Translations under genes and position numbers: made by a program | Virus record (IMG/VR): IMGVR_UViG_3300042937_000333 | Coordinates: 1 to 45,305 of that record | DNA: 45,305 nucleotides | Source of the DNA: a virus | Direction: 5' to 3' (one strand) | Part shown: positions 26,698 through 44,136 of the stretch, one piece after another | Layout of the letters: each line of letters begins with the position of its first letter | Numbering within the stretch: the stretch's first letter is position 1 | The notes under the pieces: generated by a model | Told to the model about the DNA's origin: nothing | The model's input: only the letters and a program-made list of their open reading frames with translations | Databases searched by the model: none

Positions 26698-27303
26698 ATG
26701 TCAAAAAATATTAAAAATTCACCAAAAGTTTTAGGGTTAGACGTATCAACTCGTACAATCGGTTGGGCTCTATTTGATGTTCAGTCACAAGAATTATTGG
26801 AATTGTCACACATATCACCTAGACCAAAATTAAAAGACAATGATGATAAAATATTAGAATTGTTGATTAAATCTGAAATTTTTGCTGAAAAATTACGACA
26901 ATATGTTGGGTTGGGAATTGTTAGGGTCATCATTGAAGAACCATTAATGAATTCAAATAACGTATATACAATTCAAACCTTATTAAGGTTCAATAGTTTT
27001 GTTTTTAAAGAAATATATAATATTTTAGGTATTGTACCAGAATTTATATCAACATATAATTCTAGAAAATTTGCTTGGCCTGATTTTGTTAAAGAAAACG
27101 ATAAGGGTAAGCACGTTTTATTCGGTGGTTTACCAAAAGATGTTGATAAGAAAATGTTAATTTGGGAAAAGGTTGCTAAACGTGAACCACAAATTGTTTG
27201 GGATTACACAAAAAATAACACATTGAAAAAAGAAAATTTTGATCAAACGGACGCATATACTTGTGTGTTGGGTTATATGAGATCAAAAGAAATTTGGAAT
27301 TAA
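26698..27303 (+). CDS. RuvC-like Holliday junction resolvase / RNase H-fold nuclease
   Basis: A 201-residue RNase H-fold nuclease of the RuvC type. Acidic residues fit the usual order: D15 in LGLDVSTRTIGWALFD (first strand), E80/E81 in VRVIIEEPL (fourth strand) and D182/D185 in FDQTDAYTCVLGY (last helix). Such proteins cut four-way junctions and resolve replication or recombination intermediates before packaging; in T4 this job belongs to the unrelated endonuclease VII. The length is slightly above bacterial RuvC (about 170). It is separated from the structural genes by 50 bases and is followed by a hairpin terminator. Exact substrate is inferred. Confidence 0.8.
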   Translation: MSKNIKNSPKVLGLDVSTRTIGWALFDVQSQELLELSHISPRPKLKDNDDKILELLIKSEIFAEKLRQYVGLGIVRVIIEEPLMNSNNVYTIQTLLRFNSFVFKEIYNILGIVPEFISTYNSRKFAWPDFVKENDKGKHVLFGGLPKDVDKKMLIWEKVAKREPQIVWDYTKNNTLKKENFDQTDAYTCVLGYMRSKEIWN

Positions 27304-37923: not shown

Positions 37924-38466
37924 ATGAAGTATTTATTATTTGTCTATCCCAATCATACATACTGGGAAGCCGATATTATGAACCACGAAATAGGGGTTGA
38001 ACTAACTAAAATTTCAAAAGAAAAAAAACCAGTTAATTTTATTTACAGCGAAACGGATTCGGTATTTAATTTCAATTCTGATTTGTCGGAAGATGAGTTA
38101 TTAATATACCTTGATACGTTAGATCCCATAATAGATGAGTTTACCTATATTTTAGTTAGAGGTGCTAAAAGTATCACGTCAAATTTACCTAAACAACATT
38201 TTAAACAATTAACAAACCCTAAAAATAAGGGTAAAACAGATGGTGATATTAATTATTTCGCAACAAGTGACGGTGAATTAGATCAAAACTATTATGAAAC
38301 ATTAGTGAATAACGCCATGGATTATTTTTTCAGTAAAAATCTAGGACAAAATGTTTGTACAATGACACTTGACGACCTATTAGATAAAATATCATTAGAT
38401 GGTATTGATTCATTAACAACAGAAGAGAAAAATAAATTAGACGAATATTCAAAAACACAATTATGA
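37924..38466 (+). CDS. Hypothetical protein upstream of the sigma factor
   Basis: A 180-residue unknown protein, starting MKYLLFVYPNHTYWEADIM. It has a beta-rich N-terminal half, a central segment VRGAKSITSNLPKQ, and an acidic helical C-terminus (LTTEEKNKLDEYSKTQL). Its stop overlaps the start of the sigma gene by four bases (ATGA), so the two are probably translationally coupled. A partner or anti-sigma role is conceivable from this coupling only; no motif supports it. Confidence 0.58.
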   Translation: MKYLLFVYPNHTYWEADIMNHEIGVELTKISKEKKPVNFIYSETDSVFNFNSDLSEDELLIYLDTLDPIIDEFTYILVRGAKSITSNLPKQHFKQLTNPKNKGKTDGDINYFATSDGELDQNYYETLVNNAMDYFFSKNLGQNVCTMTLDDLLDKISLDGIDSLTTEEKNKLDEYSKTQL

Positions 38467-39263
38467 GAGAAAAAACAAACGGAGCGCCGATTAATCAAGA
38501 CGAAATTTATCACTACTTAAAGGACATTAGAAAAATAAAAGTAATGACACCTGAACGTGAGAAAGAATTAGCGATTAAAATGAAGTCAGAAGAAACGTCG
38601 TTGATTGAAAAGAAACGGATTGAAGAGGAGTTAATACAAGGTAACCTACGTTTTGTTATCACCGTCGCAAAACAATATCAAAATCAAGGTCTTGAATTAC
38701 CAGACTTAATTGCCGAAGGAAATCTTGGTTTAATGAAAGCAATTAAACATTTTGATTGGACAAAAGATCTTAGATTTATATCATATGCTGTTTGGTGGGT
38801 TAAACAATCAATAATACAATCACTAAATGATAATTCAAGAACAATACGACTACCAGTTAATGTTGTCCAGGATTTACAACGAGCAAAAAAAGAAGTTGAA
38901 CAGAACGGTAAAAAAATAGACGATAAATTCTCTGCATTACCATCAATTATCAACTTGGATATGAACATCAATGAAGAAGGTGATACGTTAGTAGACATCA
39001 TCCAGAACCATAACGCTGAAGCACCAGACGCATGTTTTGATACCAAAGATATTTTAAAACAAAAATTAATATCGTTATTGGACGTATTGGATGATCGTGA
39101 AAAAGTTATTGTTGAAGATTACTTTGGTTTAAGTGGAACACCAAGAACTTTAGAAGACATTGGATCCGATTTTAACTTAACGAAAGAACGCGTTAGACAG
39201 GTAAAGGAAAAAAGTTTAAGAAAGTTAAGAAACCATTGTTCTGAATTATTTGATTATTTATAA
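38463..39263 (+). CDS. Full-length sigma-70 family factor
   Basis: A 266-residue sigma factor with recognisable regions: 1.2 (DEIYHYLKDIRKIKVMTPER), 2 (NLRFVITVAKQYQNQG, DLIAEGNLGLMKAIKHFDW and the W-rich 2.3/2.4 stretch SYAVWWVKQSIIQSL), 3 (IRLPVNVVQDLQRAKKEV) and 4 (TLEDIGSDFNLTKERVRQVK, LRKLRNH). It resembles the short Bacteroidetes primary sigma type rather than T4 gp55, which lacks most of region 4. It probably redirects host RNA polymerase to phage promoters, perhaps those with TATTTAT. It is read from a host-type promoter at 37893. A 16-bp palindrome (39262-39277) overlaps its end. Confidence 0.86.
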   Translation: MREKTNGAPINQDEIYHYLKDIRKIKVMTPEREKELAIKMKSEETSLIEKKRIEEELIQGNLRFVITVAKQYQNQGLELPDLIAEGNLGLMKAIKHFDWTKDLRFISYAVWWVKQSIIQSLNDNSRTIRLPVNVVQDLQRAKKEVEQNGKKIDDKFSALPSIINLDMNINEEGDTLVDIIQNHNAEAPDACFDTKDILKQKLISLLDVLDDREKVIVEDYFGLSGTPRTLEDIGSDFNLTKERVRQVKEKSLRKLRNHCSELFDYL

Positions 39264-39586: not shown

Positions 39587-39619
39587 ACTTGATAATTAAT
39601 TTCTTGAAAATATTTGATT

Positions 39620-39647
39620 CCCACCGTAAATGGTGGGTTTTTTTTTT
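39620..39647 (+). terminator. Rho-independent terminator
   Basis: A six-bp stem (CCCACC / GGTGGG) around a GTAAAT loop is followed directly by ten T's. It ends the small-gene transcript and lies 47 bases before the first methyltransferase start. Confidence 0.9.
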
Positions 39648-39657
39648 GATCATATCA

Positions 39658-39689
39658 TTTGACATTAAAAAACGTTTCACCTATATTTC
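39658..39689 (+). promoter_or_regulatory. Bacteroidetes-type promoter for methyltransferases
   Basis: TTTG at 39658-39661, a 20-base gap, and TATATTTC at 39682-39689 match the -33/-7 layout with one change (final G to C). ATG 39694 is four bases downstream, so a leaderless message is likely. It follows a terminator, so it should be the start of the three-gene unit. Confidence 0.58.
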
Positions 39690-39693
39690 ATCT

Positions 39694-40530
39694 ATGAATG
39701 TATTAAGTTTATTTGATGGATTATCTTGTGGTCAAATTGCCCTTAATAGAGTTGGAATTAAATACAACAAGTATTTTGCGTCAGAGATTGACGAATACGC
39801 GATTAAAGTAACCCAACAGAATTATCCAGGAACAACCCAAATTGGTGATGTAACACAAGTTAAAGGATCTGAGTTACCACAAATTGATCTTATCATTGGT
39901 GGATCACCTTGTCAAGGATTTTCATTTGCGGGAAAAGGTTTAAATTTTGACGATCCAAGAAGTGCTTTATTCTTTGAATTTGTTAGATTAGTAAAAGAAT
40001 GTAATCCGAAATACTTTTTACTTGAAAATGTTAAAATGAAAAAAGAACACGAAGATGTTATTACTGAACATATGGGGATTAAACCTATTAAGATTAATAG
40101 TAAATTAGTATCAGCACAAAGTAGGGAAAGACTATATTGGACTAATATTCCGAACATAAAACAACCGGAAGATAAAGGTATTTTAGTTAAAGATATTTTA
40201 GATTATACCACCGAACATAAACTTTTAACTGAGAAGGGTATTAAATCACAAATCCATTATGCCAAAAATTACAAGTCAATAGGTAAATCACCAACATTAA
40301 CTAGTGAATTGGCGCACGGTTGGGGTAAGAACATCACACCCAAATGTTATATTGAAATAAAAGCAATTACTGGTGAGGATAGGTTATTCTCACCATTAGA
40401 ATGTGAACGATTACAAACAGTTCCAGATAATTACACTTCAGTTGTATCAAATACACAAAGATATAAAATGTTGGGGAATGGATGGACAGTAGATGTAATC
40501 GCACATATATTTAAAAATATTGAAATATGA
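39694..40530 (+). CDS. DNA cytosine-C5 methyltransferase 1
   Basis: A 278-residue C5-cytosine methyltransferase; I start it at ATG 39694 (MNVLSLFDGLSCGQ), because an upstream in-frame extension to 39589 would run through the terminator. The motifs are complete: I (LSLFDGLSCG, SAM binding), IV (PCQ at residues 72-74 in GGSPCQGFSFAG, catalytic Cys73), VI (LLENV), VIII (SRERLYW) and X (GNGWTVDVIAHIF). The target-recognition region, about residues 160-230, differs from that of its two paralogues. It is the first of three overlapping copies (4-base ATGA). It would protect phage DNA from restriction. Confidence 0.88.
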   Translation: MNVLSLFDGLSCGQIALNRVGIKYNKYFASEIDEYAIKVTQQNYPGTTQIGDVTQVKGSELPQIDLIIGGSPCQGFSFAGKGLNFDDPRSALFFEFVRLVKECNPKYFLLENVKMKKEHEDVITEHMGIKPIKINSKLVSAQSRERLYWTNIPNIKQPEDKGILVKDILDYTTEHKLLTEKGIKSQIHYAKNYKSIGKSPTLTSELAHGWGKNITPKCYIEIKAITGEDRLFSPLECERLQTVPDNYTSVVSNTQRYKMLGNGWTVDVIAHIFKNIEI

Positions 40531-41324
40531 ATGTATTAAGTTTATTTGACGGCATGTCAGTAGGACAAATTGCTCTTAATAGAGTTGGAATTAAGTATGA
40601 CAAATATTTTGCATCAGAGATTGATAAATTTGCAATACAAGTAACACAATGTAATTATCCAGAAACAACCCAAATTGGGGATGTAACACAAGTGAAAGGT
40701 TCCGATCTGCCACAAATTGATCTTATTATTGGTGGATCACCTTGTCAAGGATTTTCATTTGCTGGTAAACAATTGAATTTTGATGATCCAAGAAGTGCTT
40801 TATTCTTTGAGTTTGTTAGGTTAATTGAAGAATGTAAACCAAAGTATTTTCTACTTGAAAATGTTGTGATGAAAAAAGAATATGAAGATATTATCACACA
40901 ACATATGGGTGTAAAACCAATTCTCATAAATAGTAATCTTGTTTCAGCACAAAATAGAAAACGACTTTATTGGACCAACATTCCAAACATAGAACAACCA
41001 GAAGATTTAAATATAACTATGTCTGACATACTTTTAAGTGGTCAACATATACTTGTCTCAAAACAAAAAAAGGAACATAAACCTGGTGGTGATAAAACGG
41101 CAACATTACTTGCTAGAGACTATAAAGGATTTGGTAATCAACAAATGAGTGGTGCTATGGACAATGGTAATATTAGAATGTTTACACCTGTAGAATATGA
41201 AAGATTACAAACTGTTCCAGATAATTACACCTCTGTCGTCTCAAACACCCAAAGATATAAAATGCTTGGAAATGGATGGACTGTTGATGTAATTGCACAT
41301 ATATTTAAAAATATAGAAATATGA
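40527..41324 (+). CDS. DNA cytosine-C5 methyltransferase 2
   Basis: A 265-residue paralogue, starting in an ATGA overlap with methyltransferase 1. It has the same N-terminal half almost residue for residue (LSLFDGMSVGQIALNRVG; PCQ at 72-74) and a near-identical C-terminal motif block (YERLQTVPDNYTSVVSNTQR). The region between motifs VIII and IX, about residues 160-205, is short and distinct (SGQHILVSKQKKEHKPGGDK), so the recognition sequence is probably different from copies 1 and 3. One change from the others is FDGMSVGQ in motif I, where Cys is replaced by Val. Probably active. Confidence 0.87.
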   Translation: MNVLSLFDGMSVGQIALNRVGIKYDKYFASEIDKFAIQVTQCNYPETTQIGDVTQVKGSDLPQIDLIIGGSPCQGFSFAGKQLNFDDPRSALFFEFVRLIEECKPKYFLLENVVMKKEYEDIITQHMGVKPILINSNLVSAQNRKRLYWTNIPNIEQPEDLNITMSDILLSGQHILVSKQKKEHKPGGDKTATLLARDYKGFGNQQMSGAMDNGNIRMFTPVEYERLQTVPDNYTSVVSNTQRYKMLGNGWTVDVIAHIFKNIEI

Positions 41325-42229
41325 ATGTATTAAGTTTATTTGATGGGTTATCTTGCGGTCAAATCGCATTGAACCGTGCTGATATTAAATATGAAAATTA
41401 TTTTGCTTCCGAAATTGACAAACACGCAATCAAGGTAACGCAACACAATTACCCAAACACAATACAACTTGGAAGTGTTACAGAAATTAAAGGGTCTGAT
41501 TTACCACAAATTGATCTTATCATTGGTGGATCACCGTGTCAAGGATTTTCATTCGCTGGTAAACAATTAAACTTTGATGATCCACGAAGTAAATTATTTT
41601 TTGAGTTTGTTAGACTAAAAAATGAGTTAAATCCAAAATACTTTTTACTTGAAAACGTTGTGATGAAACAAGAGTTCCAGGATGTAATAACCGAGTATCT
41701 GGGTGTCAAACCAATTAAGATTAATAGTAAATTGGTATCAGCACAAACCAGAGAAAGATTATATTGGACTAATATACCAAATTTAAAACAACCAGAGGAT
41801 TGTGGAATAACATTAAATGATATCTTGGAGGATATTGGTATAAATGGTGAATCTTTTGATAAAACAAAATTAAATAAAGCGACAATATTAGGTAGAAGAT
41901 TAGATTCTCGTGGTAAACGGATGGATTATGACAAAACAATCCCAATTACACAATGTTTGGAGGTTAGAGCGACAAATAGAGATAAAAGTAATTGTTTAAC
42001 AACGGTTGCAAAAGATAATGTTTTAACAACACTACCAATTGGTCGTCACGTTGACGCATTTAAAAAGAATTTACCATTCAGATATTTTACAATAAAAGAA
42101 CATTGTAGACTACAAACCGTACCAGATACTTATTTTGATGGTGTTGCGAGTGAAAATCAAATTAGAAAAATGTTAGGAAATGGGTGGACAGTTGATGTTA
42201 TTTCACATATTTTTAAAAATATTTTGTGA
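41321..42229 (+). CDS. DNA cytosine-C5 methyltransferase 3
   Basis: A 302-residue paralogue that again begins in an ATGA overlap. Motifs I, IV (PCQ at 72-74), VI (LLENV), VIII (TRERLYW) and X (GNGWTVDVISHIF) are present. Its recognition region is the longest of the three, about residues 165-265 (TILGRRLDSRGKRMDYDK, then AKDNVLTTLPIGRHV), and shows no obvious match to the other two. The C-terminal block is more diverged (ERLQTVPDNYTS becomes CRLQTVPDTYFDG), so this copy is the oldest branch of the trio. It ends eight bases before the TATTTAT and promoter of the RNA region. Confidence 0.87.
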   Translation: MNVLSLFDGLSCGQIALNRADIKYENYFASEIDKHAIKVTQHNYPNTIQLGSVTEIKGSDLPQIDLIIGGSPCQGFSFAGKQLNFDDPRSKLFFEFVRLKNELNPKYFLLENVVMKQEFQDVITEYLGVKPIKINSKLVSAQTRERLYWTNIPNLKQPEDCGITLNDILEDIGINGESFDKTKLNKATILGRRLDSRGKRMDYDKTIPITQCLEVRATNRDKSNCLTTVAKDNVLTTLPIGRHVDAFKKNLPFRYFTIKEHCRLQTVPDTYFDGVASENQIRKMLGNGWTVDVISHIFKNIL

Positions 42230-42232
42230 AAG

Positions 42233-42265
42233 TTGTTATTTATTCAAAATAAAGTGTTACATTTG
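42233..42265 (+). promoter_or_regulatory. Bacteroidetes-type promoter for the RNA region
   Basis: TACATTTG at 42258-42265 matches TAnnTTTG. A TTG at 42233-42235 gives a -33 element with a slightly long 22-base gap, and a TATTTAT (42237-42243) lies between them. Predicted start of transcription is near 42270, with no start codon following for a plus-strand gene. Confidence 0.6.
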
Positions 42266-42269
42266 TACT

Positions 42270-42595
42270 GTTGGATTAATCAACAACTTGTTTTTGGACT
42301 CCCAAGTATAGAAAAGGAGTTTATCACTTAACTCACGGGTTAGGTGGGGTGATTGAAAAAGATGGGAGATCCCCAAAATACACAGAAACGTGGTAATTAC
42401 CAGCCATCCCATATACGGCTAGATGGGCGTTAAGTCTTTACGAGATAAGGACAGAAAGGACGGGTTAAAAATCACAAATGAGCTCAAAGTGATGGTTTAA
42501 GTAGAAGTAGTTTGGGAAGAAACGAGCCCAGGCTGATAGGAAGATGGAAGACGATTAAGATACTAATATCCTATCCTACTTAAGCAACCCAAATT
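42270..42595 (+). ncRNA. Candidate structured non-coding RNA, ~325 nt
   Basis: About 310 bases here have no plus-strand gene, and G+C rises to roughly 40-47% per line against about 31% around it. Several complementary segments can be drawn: TGTTG/CAACA (42269-42285), ACTCC/GGAGT (42298-42320), GGGG/CCCC (42346-42374), GTCTT/AGGAC near 42434-42452, GATAGGA/TCCTATC (42535-42575) and a ten-base helix 42495-42504 with 42576-42585 that encloses the last. TTTGGG (42511-42516) could also pair with CCCAAA (42588-42593) as a pseudoknot. It follows a host-type promoter. I do not recognise the family; tRNA, tmRNA, RNase P RNA, SRP RNA and group I intron were considered and not supported. The 3' end is uncertain. 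Confidence 0.6.
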
Positions 42596-43002
42596 ACAAC
42601 TTGATTATCACCAACTCTAAAAGGATTTGAAGGTGATTCCCTAAATACAGTTGAAATTTCTAATCTCCAGTAAGTACCCCCAATATGTATAGGGTTTATC
42701 GCTAACGCTAATTCCCGTTCAACTGATTTAACGACAAATGGTTTTTTGTTAAAAATTTCTCTATTAATAATTTTTTCGGCGATATCACCCTTAACTAGTG
42801 AAATAAGTTCTTTAATTTCTCTATTTTCAATAGGGTTCTGATTATAATCTGTTCCATCAAGTTCTGGTCTTGTAGATCTATCAAAAGCATGACTCCTCCT
42901 GTCAACTTCAAAATTAAATGAAACCTCAAGATTTGAAACAACTTGTGCTATTTTCTTTTCAAGTATTAAATGTTTTCTAATTGACTCTCTAAGTAGTGAC
43001 AT
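42580..43002 (-). CDS. Hypothetical protein, minus strand
   Basis: A 140-residue minus-strand protein, starting MSLLRESIRKHLILEKKIAQ, whose last codons overlap the 3' end of the RNA candidate. The centre has FEVDRRSHAFDRSTRPELDG with His/Arg pairs, then helical DIAEKIINREIF and a beta-rich C-terminus (TYWRLEISTVFRES, QVVIWVA). That helix-then-sheet layout with early His could fit a small BECR-type nuclease fold, but this is a weak guess. It is the only reverse gene in this part and faces the plus-strand membrane protein gene. Function unknown. Confidence 0.58.
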   Translation of the reverse strand: MSLLRESIRKHLILEKKIAQVVSNLEVSFNFEVDRRSHAFDRSTRPELDGTDYNQNPIENREIKELISLVKGDIAEKIINREIFNKKPFVVKSVERELALAINPIHIGGTYWRLEISTVFRESPSNPFRVGDNQVVIWVA

Positions 43003-43050: not shown

Positions 43051-44136
43051 ATGAAAGAAAAATTTTTACCTTGGTTTATGTTAGTGTGTGCGTTAGGTCT
43101 ATCTGGTACCGCAGCATACTATAGTGTTATTGGATTATCCGTTGTGTTTATTAGTGTTGCAACACCAGTTATTATTATGGGATCATTCCTTGAGATCTCA
43201 AAAATCGCAATTGCGACCTATTTACACGACAAATGGAATGAAACATACGGAATGTTAAAGTTCTATATGACAACTGCCTTAATTACATTATCAATAATTA
43301 CATCAATTGGTATTTACGGACTTTTGAGTACTGGATTCCAGGGAAATATTGCCAAAATGGAAATCAATGAAAAACGAATTAAAAATATTGAGGTTAAGAA
43401 GAATCGGTTTATAGAAATAAAAGATGAATTAATTGATGAGAAAACAATATTAAATGGTGATATAACAAAATTGAGAGATGGACTATCAAATAATACAACG
43501 ACACAAACAGTTGACAGAAAAACAGGACAATTAATAACCAAGGCCAACGAGGGTAATAGGAAATCTTTTGAAACTCAATTACAACAAGCACAAGTCAGAC
43601 GAGACGATATTTCAAAAAAGATTGACAATTGTAACGACAGTATTACCAAATTAGATGTTCAGATTTTAGATATGGAATCTGCGGAAATTGAGGGTAGTGA
43701 ACTTGGGGCTATAAAATACATTGGAGAAATATTAGATTGGGATATAAAAAAAGTTGCCAACTTATTTATATTGATATTAATTTTTGTTTTTGATCCGTTA
43801 GCGATAACATTAGTGATTGCAACAAATCAATTGTTTAAATCAAACAAGAAAAAGAATCCGACAACACAAAAAATTGAGACGGATAATACCAAAATAGAAA
43901 CAGAAAAAATTTGGGAAAAGGCAAACCAATTACGAGAAGAAGGTAAATTAGAACCACCAACCACAGAAGACATTATTAATGAACCAACGGCTTTGGCCAA
44001 TTCACAATACCGAAATGAATATAATATAGAACGGGAACCATTAAATCTGAACCAAGAGATAAATTGGGTTCAGACAAGTGAAGAAAATAATGGTGAGGTT
44101 AATCAAAACATAAAAAGATTGATATATAAGAAATAA
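43051..44136 (+). CDS. Membrane protein with internal coiled coil
   Basis: A 361-residue membrane protein. Hydrophobic segments occur at about residues 7-28 (FMLVCALGLSGTAAYYSVIG), 28-52, 72-93 (FYMTTALITLSIITSIGIYG) and 230-255 (VANLFILILIFVFDPLAIT). Between the third and fourth is a long charged coiled coil (about 100-215; KRIKNIEVKKNRFIEIKDEL, then QAQVRRDDISKKIDNCND). The C-terminal 100 residues are polar and acidic. The stop overlaps the amidase gene (TAATG), so they are coupled. Similar membrane/coiled-coil proteins are annotated in T4-like phages of other hosts without known function. It could act in lysis, superinfection exclusion or envelope remodelling. Confidence 0.65.
   Translation: MKEKFLPWFMLVCALGLSGTAAYYSVIGLSVVFISVATPVIIMGSFLEISKIAIATYLHDKWNETYGMLKFYMTTALITLSIITSIGIYGLLSTGFQGNIAKMEINEKRIKNIEVKKNRFIEIKDELIDEKTILNGDITKLRDGLSNNTTTQTVDRKTGQLITKANEGNRKSFETQLQQAQVRRDDISKKIDNCNDSITKLDVQILDMESAEIEGSELGAIKYIGEILDWDIKKVANLFILILIFVFDPLAITLVIATNQLFKSNKKKNPTTQKIETDNTKIETEKIWEKANQLREEGKLEPPTTEDIINEPTALANSQYRNEYNIEREPLNLNQEINWVQTSEENNGEVNQNIKRLIYKK

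Follow-up and report, generated by a model that had tools for sequence, protein, structure and literature searches.

The window analysed here, 45,305 nucleotides of the virus record IMGVR_UViG_3300042937_000333, carries an intergenic region that lies in a slot bounded on the left by a phage RNA polymerase sigma factor gene (38463..39263, plus strand; identified by Pfam) and on the right by a gene for a 361-aa membrane protein (43051..44136, plus strand). Three tandem 5mC methyltransferase genes occupy positions 39589–42229; the copy number at this place ranges from none to at least three among relatives, and these genes are variable cargo of the slot. Between the region of interest and the membrane-protein gene there is a convergent gene of 140 aa (42580..43002, minus strand), for which searches of Pfam and PHROG gave no match. 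As had been described previously, the 3′ end of this gene runs into the 3′ side of the RNA, the overlap being 15 nt.

Wherever the two were compared, the window was 100% identical to a record of 296,330 bases, IMGVR_UViG_3300044633_000899 (G001), referred to below as the parent genome. The start of the window corresponds to G001 position 281,182 and the RNA region to position 26,947, so the window spans the ends of the G001 record, which is presumably circularly permuted. Genes in the window include what we take to be gp25- and gp6-like baseplate genes and gp46/47-like recombination genes. The gene content and the Bacteroidetes-type promoters appear to match those of the moraphages, a described group of large aquatic phages of Bacteroidota (PMC12619734).

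The parent genome also encodes a GOLLD RNA (321 bits; L285:3666-4074, equivalent to G001:143666-144074), a tmRNA (RF00023, 103 bits; L285:5949-6345, minus strand), which ARAGORN did not report, and two tRNAs (tRNA-Glu at L283:4846-4918 and a second at L285:218-314), the second being found by Rfam only. Three further intergenic stretches of the parent are G+C-rich (G001:141028-141230, 103195-103870 and 105795-105996); two of them have strong predicted folds and none matched Rfam.

A non-coding, structured region

The preliminary description had reported that the region holds no plus-strand gene and has a raised G+C content, and both observations were borne out. Each of the three plus frames contains 7 stops between 42266 and 42600, where there is no plus-strand ORF of at least 100 aa, and the G+C content from 42266 to about 42600 is 0.40, whereas the window averages 0.313 (sd 0.030); only 0.6% of stretches of this length in the window are as G+C-rich. 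The predicted fold of the plus strand (−90.2 kcal/mol, z = −2.39) was equalled by 1 of 100 shuffled sequences, and that of the minus strand was unremarkable (z = −0.48). A long-range helix joining the 5′ and 3′ parts of the minimum-energy fold was judged unlikely, as its 3′ strand lies where the convergent gene is coding.

No Rfam family, including GOLLD, ROOL and OLE, matched the window at the gathering score. When E-values up to 10 were allowed for 42200–42700, only hits of 14–16 bits were seen, which is chance level. ARAGORN and Rfam found no tRNA or tmRNA in the window or in the 44 loci examined. Nor was a conserved reading frame found: stops occur in all plus frames of the region in the window and of nine of the ten module A sequences described below, the sequence from L185 being open in one frame. 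This outcome, like the covariation among module A homologues, speaks for an RNA; a conserved frame and a lack of covariation were among the refuting results named in the preliminary description.

Promoter and 5′ leader

A Bacteroidetes-type promoter lies at 42233..42265 on the plus strand, with a −33 element (TTG, 42233–42235), a 22-nt spacer and a −7 element, TACATTTG, at 42258–42265, just before the RNA as previously described. The −33 element is degenerate and weak in the window; it is perfect in most relatives. The full TTTG-N17-22-TAnnTTTG sequence, the known motif of Bacteroidetes housekeeping promoters, was present upstream of module A in nine of ten sequences (shuffled expectation 0.000), ending 11–15 nt before the module in these nine. 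The single exception is the window itself, where a second module, B, sits between the promoter and A. The promoter is followed by a 5′ leader hairpin, TGTTG/CAACA (42269..42285, plus strand), and TTATT/AATAA is found at the equivalent place in L085.

Module A and its covarying fold

Comparison with relatives by blast showed that the region falls into two parts of different history. Positions 42262–42463 matched, at 88%, an intergenic element of L085/L086/L090. Positions 42462–42597 matched, at 73–98%, elements in L013, L028, L042, L044, L045, L107, L109, L113 and others, in which module A follows directly 3′ of the promoter; in L003/L005 it is preceded by a third, short element (type C). The proposal that a host-type promoter here precedes a new structured RNA stands, given the lack of an Rfam family, the covarying homologues, the fixed promoter distance and the absence of a conserved frame. 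The region consists of two joined modules.

Module A (42460..42594, plus strand) was compared across ten distinct homologous sequences. Of the cells in its 33 base pairs, 96.6% were paired; 9 pairs showed double-sided changes, in 20 cells, a level that none of 500 shuffles reached. When the partners were slid by one to three columns the proportion of paired cells fell to 27–47%, in a test biased in favour of the structure because this had been derived from nine of the same sequences. The tenth, L185, was left out of the derivation; in it, P4 reads GACTTGG/CCAAGTC and P5 reads GGTGAAA/TTTCACC.

The long helix P3 (42495–42504 with 42576–42585) is supported by covariation and encloses two hairpins: P4 (42509–42516 with 42527–42534), which has three double-sided pairs, and P5 (42535–42541 with 42569–42575), which has four. 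P3 and P5 are the ten-base helix and the enclosed seven-base helix noted earlier; both are present and both show double-sided changes in homologues. The P5 loop, ATGGAAGACGATTAAGATACTAA (42544–42566), is near-invariant. A pseudoknot between 42511–42516 and 42588–42593 had also been suggested. It is unsupported, because 42511–42516 belongs to P4, whose two strands change together: TTTGGG becomes TTTAGG in most homologues along with its P4 partner, while CCCAAA is unchanged.

The covariance model of module A, R1, gave matches (103–159 bits) only at the sigma-factor/membrane-protein slot. In pattern scans of 2.9 million viral contigs, A and B were found only in this clade, coincidental matches aside. 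Module A was not found by blastn in 50,697 phage records, and its exact pattern had no match in bacterial genomes. A looser pattern recovered one new homologue, L185, and its remaining matches were unrelated.

A self-complementary loop in hairpin P2

Hairpin P2 of module A (42471–42475 with 42489–42493, plus strand) carries the loop sequence GAGCTC at 42480–42485. The same six columns read GAGCTC, GAATTC, TAATTA or GATATC in the homologues, so that in all nine sequences having P2 the loop is self-complementary, with four different palindromes. Scored as a hexamer paired with itself, 27 of 27 cells were complementary with five double-sided changes (0/500 shuffles as high), albeit from few sequences. 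The two middle bases of the loop are adjacent and cannot pair within one chain; the pairing would therefore have to join two molecules. The same argument from palindrome covariation backs the symmetric kissing loops of OLE and GOLLD (PMC12286853). On this comparative evidence the P2 palindrome indicates a homodimeric kissing loop, and dimerisation of module A is likely. P2 is missing from L185, so dimerisation would not be needed in every member.

Module B and the B–A junction

Module B (about 42286..42459, plus strand) shares 88% identity across ~200 nt with an RNA that stands alone in L085/L086/L090/L180 and ends in its own terminator, and it has a distant homologue in L144/L183. Its helices were compared across three distinct sequences (window, L085 and L144) with strands chosen by eye, so that the support is suggestive and carries no statistical test. 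Hairpin P2 of this module (42325–42332 with 42339–42346) keeps its 8 pairs in all three although the sequences differ. Helix P3, GGTGATT/AATTACC (42348..42401), is kept as GGTGATT/AATCATC and TGATT/GATCA; it encloses P3a, a GAAA-loop hairpin kept in two of the three sequences and with one mismatch in the window, and contains a conserved core, AAATACACAGAAACGTGGTAATTACC (42376–42401), whose pattern occurs only in this clade. Hairpin P4, CCCAT/ATGGG with a 10-nt loop (42408..42427), corresponds to CATAC/GTATG in L144, and hairpin P5, GTCTTT/AAGGAC with the loop ACGAGAT (42434..42452), to AATCTT/AAGATT in L085 and TTTC/GAAA in L144. All these features are on the plus strand. The comparison thus suggests that helices P2–P5 are kept with different bases.

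The terminator of module B has been lost in the window. At the junction (42455..42463, plus strand) a remnant 5′ terminator arm, AAAGGACGG, is fused to the start of A; the equivalent sequence in L085 is AAAAAAGGACGGATAAACCGTCCTTTTTTT. Since this left arm runs directly into A, B and A would now form a single transcription unit. No terminator was found after module A in the window, and a separate 335-nt RNA would consequently need another way to end. We conclude from the comparisons that region 42258–42594 is a previously undescribed structured RNA gene of a giant phage, a chimera of two modules, and we are highly confident of its fold and non-coding nature.

The slot as an exchange site for structured RNAs

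We compared 85 distinct sigma-factor/membrane-protein intervals of 88–4,395 nt. Patterns for RNA types D, E, H and B were found 49, 5, 7 and 5 times, respectively. The slot pattern for module A was too strict, and its count of 10 comes from blast and the covariance model. Most intervals contained A, B, D, E or H, and about a sixth had none of these. The RNAs occurred in the combinations B-A, C-A, A-E-D, D-E, E-D and D-H. Judged from these comparisons, the phage group uses one site as a swap place for many structured RNAs, where 'different families' means families between which sequence similarity was not seen.

Type D, the commonest slot RNA (e.g. L022:4824-4960 and L101:10800-10936), has a putative H-type pseudoknot and three hairpins. 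Among 30 sequences, 95.8% of cells were paired and 15 pairs showed double-sided changes (0/500 shuffles). The pseudoknot pairings (GGGU/ACCC with CCGAG/CUCGG) are almost invariant, and covariation says neither for nor against them. In a pattern comparable to that of the module A P2 loop, the loop of the type D terminator reads GGTACC, GGCGCC or GATATC, with 94.4% of cells complementary, though its outer pair could instead extend the stem. Type D had no Rfam match at the loci tested and no match in bacterial genomes.

Type E occurs in the L109:11085 region and in L024, L027, L049, L127, L200, L210, L213 and L229; its hairpins resemble the D, anticodon and T arms of tRNA (GGGTTTAAATTCC) and it is not called as a tRNA. 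The slots of L011 and L104 hold further candidates, F and G. Elsewhere in the parent genome, G001:39185-39415 is a candidate small RNA with its own promoter and terminator, and has ATGGTGGTTAAGTGGGTCTCTTGGATATACCC in common with the L104 slot RNA (type G).

Possible function of the RNA

We infer that a transcript would start near 42272 from the promoter at 42233–42265 and would comprise module B followed by module A. The latter would fold into a closing helix, the P2 hairpin with its self-complementary loop and the long P3 bearing P4 and P5, and two copies of it would dimerise by contact between their P2 loops. Such an RNA may then act in trans, by way of its fold and of the near-invariant P5 loop; during takeover it would most likely bind a protein of the host or the phage, for instance as a decoy for a defence factor. 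Phages of the group exchange such RNAs at one site. We favour this trans-acting, protein-binding RNA, and consider it on balance probable, because the RNA has its own promoter, a fold, an invariant loop and is exchanged as a unit, and because control of the convergent gene is unlikely as a general role and antisense action on phage mRNAs had no support in the parent genome. Counter-defence would be the most plausible use given the exchange pattern and the methyltransferase neighbours, but we attach low certainty to it. A wider and rather speculative extension is that the slot is dedicated to RNAs, with at least five families without detected similarity (A, B, D, E and H) that are exchanged and joined together much as accessory genes are. 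Some of these RNAs would be homodimeric, and together they would make up an RNA arsenal against host defences, a counterpart of an anti-defence gene island.

The RNA might instead be a cis-acting 5′ leader or an antisense transcript controlling the 140-aa gene or, by read-through, the membrane-protein gene. The 15-nt overlap and the lack of a terminator following module A are compatible with such control, and in many phages type D lies 158–190 nt upstream of the membrane-protein start and ends in a terminator, as a riboswitch would. However, L109 has module A but lacks the convergent gene, so the pairing with its mRNA that had been raised earlier is not the conserved feature, and the gene is also found together with D and other RNAs. 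As each of the two is found in the absence of the other, a general role of A in controlling this gene is unlikely. A convergent gene often stands between the RNA and the membrane-protein gene, as it does in the window, and more RNA cassettes come next in L109 and L024; a constant position upstream on the same transcript, as for a riboswitch or cis-leader, was not found. We regard cis control as unlikely, and put slightly below it a small RNA whose conserved P5 loop base-pairs with mRNAs of the host or the phage to regulate them. The long, invariant and nominally unpaired stretch of P5 is what would be expected of a seed region, but when the P5 loop, the P4 loop and the module B loops were compared with the 296-kb parent genome outside their own locus, the best complementarity was within the shuffled range, leaving no antisense match above chance, and no complementarity to Escherichia coli rRNA was found. 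Mimicry of rRNA, suggested by GATT(A/C)AGATAC (790 loop) and GTGGTAAT (530 loop), was rejected, the local scores of A, B, D and E lying within the shuffled range.

Two further explanations seem much less probable. The slot RNAs could be partners or cargo of the GOLLD nanocage of the same phage: GOLLD was encoded by all eight searched records of at least 257 kb, the parent included, and it has been proposed that RNAs, phage tRNAs for example, are enclosed in its cages (PMC12286853). No physical or sequence link beyond co-occurrence was seen, however; the slot RNAs vary while GOLLD is constant, and the 224-kb relative G006, a record that may be incomplete, has type D and no GOLLD hit. We regard this association as very doubtful. 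It is more improbable still that the palindromes and hairpins are DNA-level elements without RNA function, used for recombination or protein binding at a hotspot of exchange. The slot is clearly an exchange site, and GAGCTC, GAATTC and GATATC are also typical DNA sites; yet the covarying pairs include G-U, hairpin arms lie up to 90 nt apart, and the fixed-distance promoters and the terminators after B, D and E point to RNA.

Comparison with known RNAs

In a phage group already endowed with GOLLD, the slot adds RNA families absent from Rfam, and one site with many structured RNAs provides a natural comparison for the roles of ornate phage RNAs. The phi29 pRNA, a small RNA of a phage, is built around a multi-helix junction, and its copies make loop–loop contacts. 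Unlike the module A palindrome, its loops are mutually complementary; it serves a packaging motor, and no Rfam sequence match to it was seen here. OLE RNA is much larger and is not known as a phage RNA, and it too had no match in the window. As proposed here for module A, OLE is homodimeric, and the palindrome in its kissing loop changes between GGCC, GAUC and AGCU (PMC12286853).

GOLLD (RF02032) is likewise a large-phage RNA of unknown function, and the same phage encodes it at 143.7 kb. It forms a homo-oligomer through symmetric kissing loops with covarying palindromes (PMC12286853), and palindrome covariation was also found in module A. The two differ in locus and fold, the RNA described here measures 135–335 nt compared with 400–800 nt for GOLLD, and cmscan gave no match in the window. 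RNA anti-CRISPRs (Racrs) mimic CRISPR repeats (PMC10651486), and a small phage RNA acting as a decoy for host immunity would, by analogy, share their principle. Module A, at 135 nt, would be a compact natural case of a covarying palindromic kissing loop, and far more tractable than the large RNA cages.
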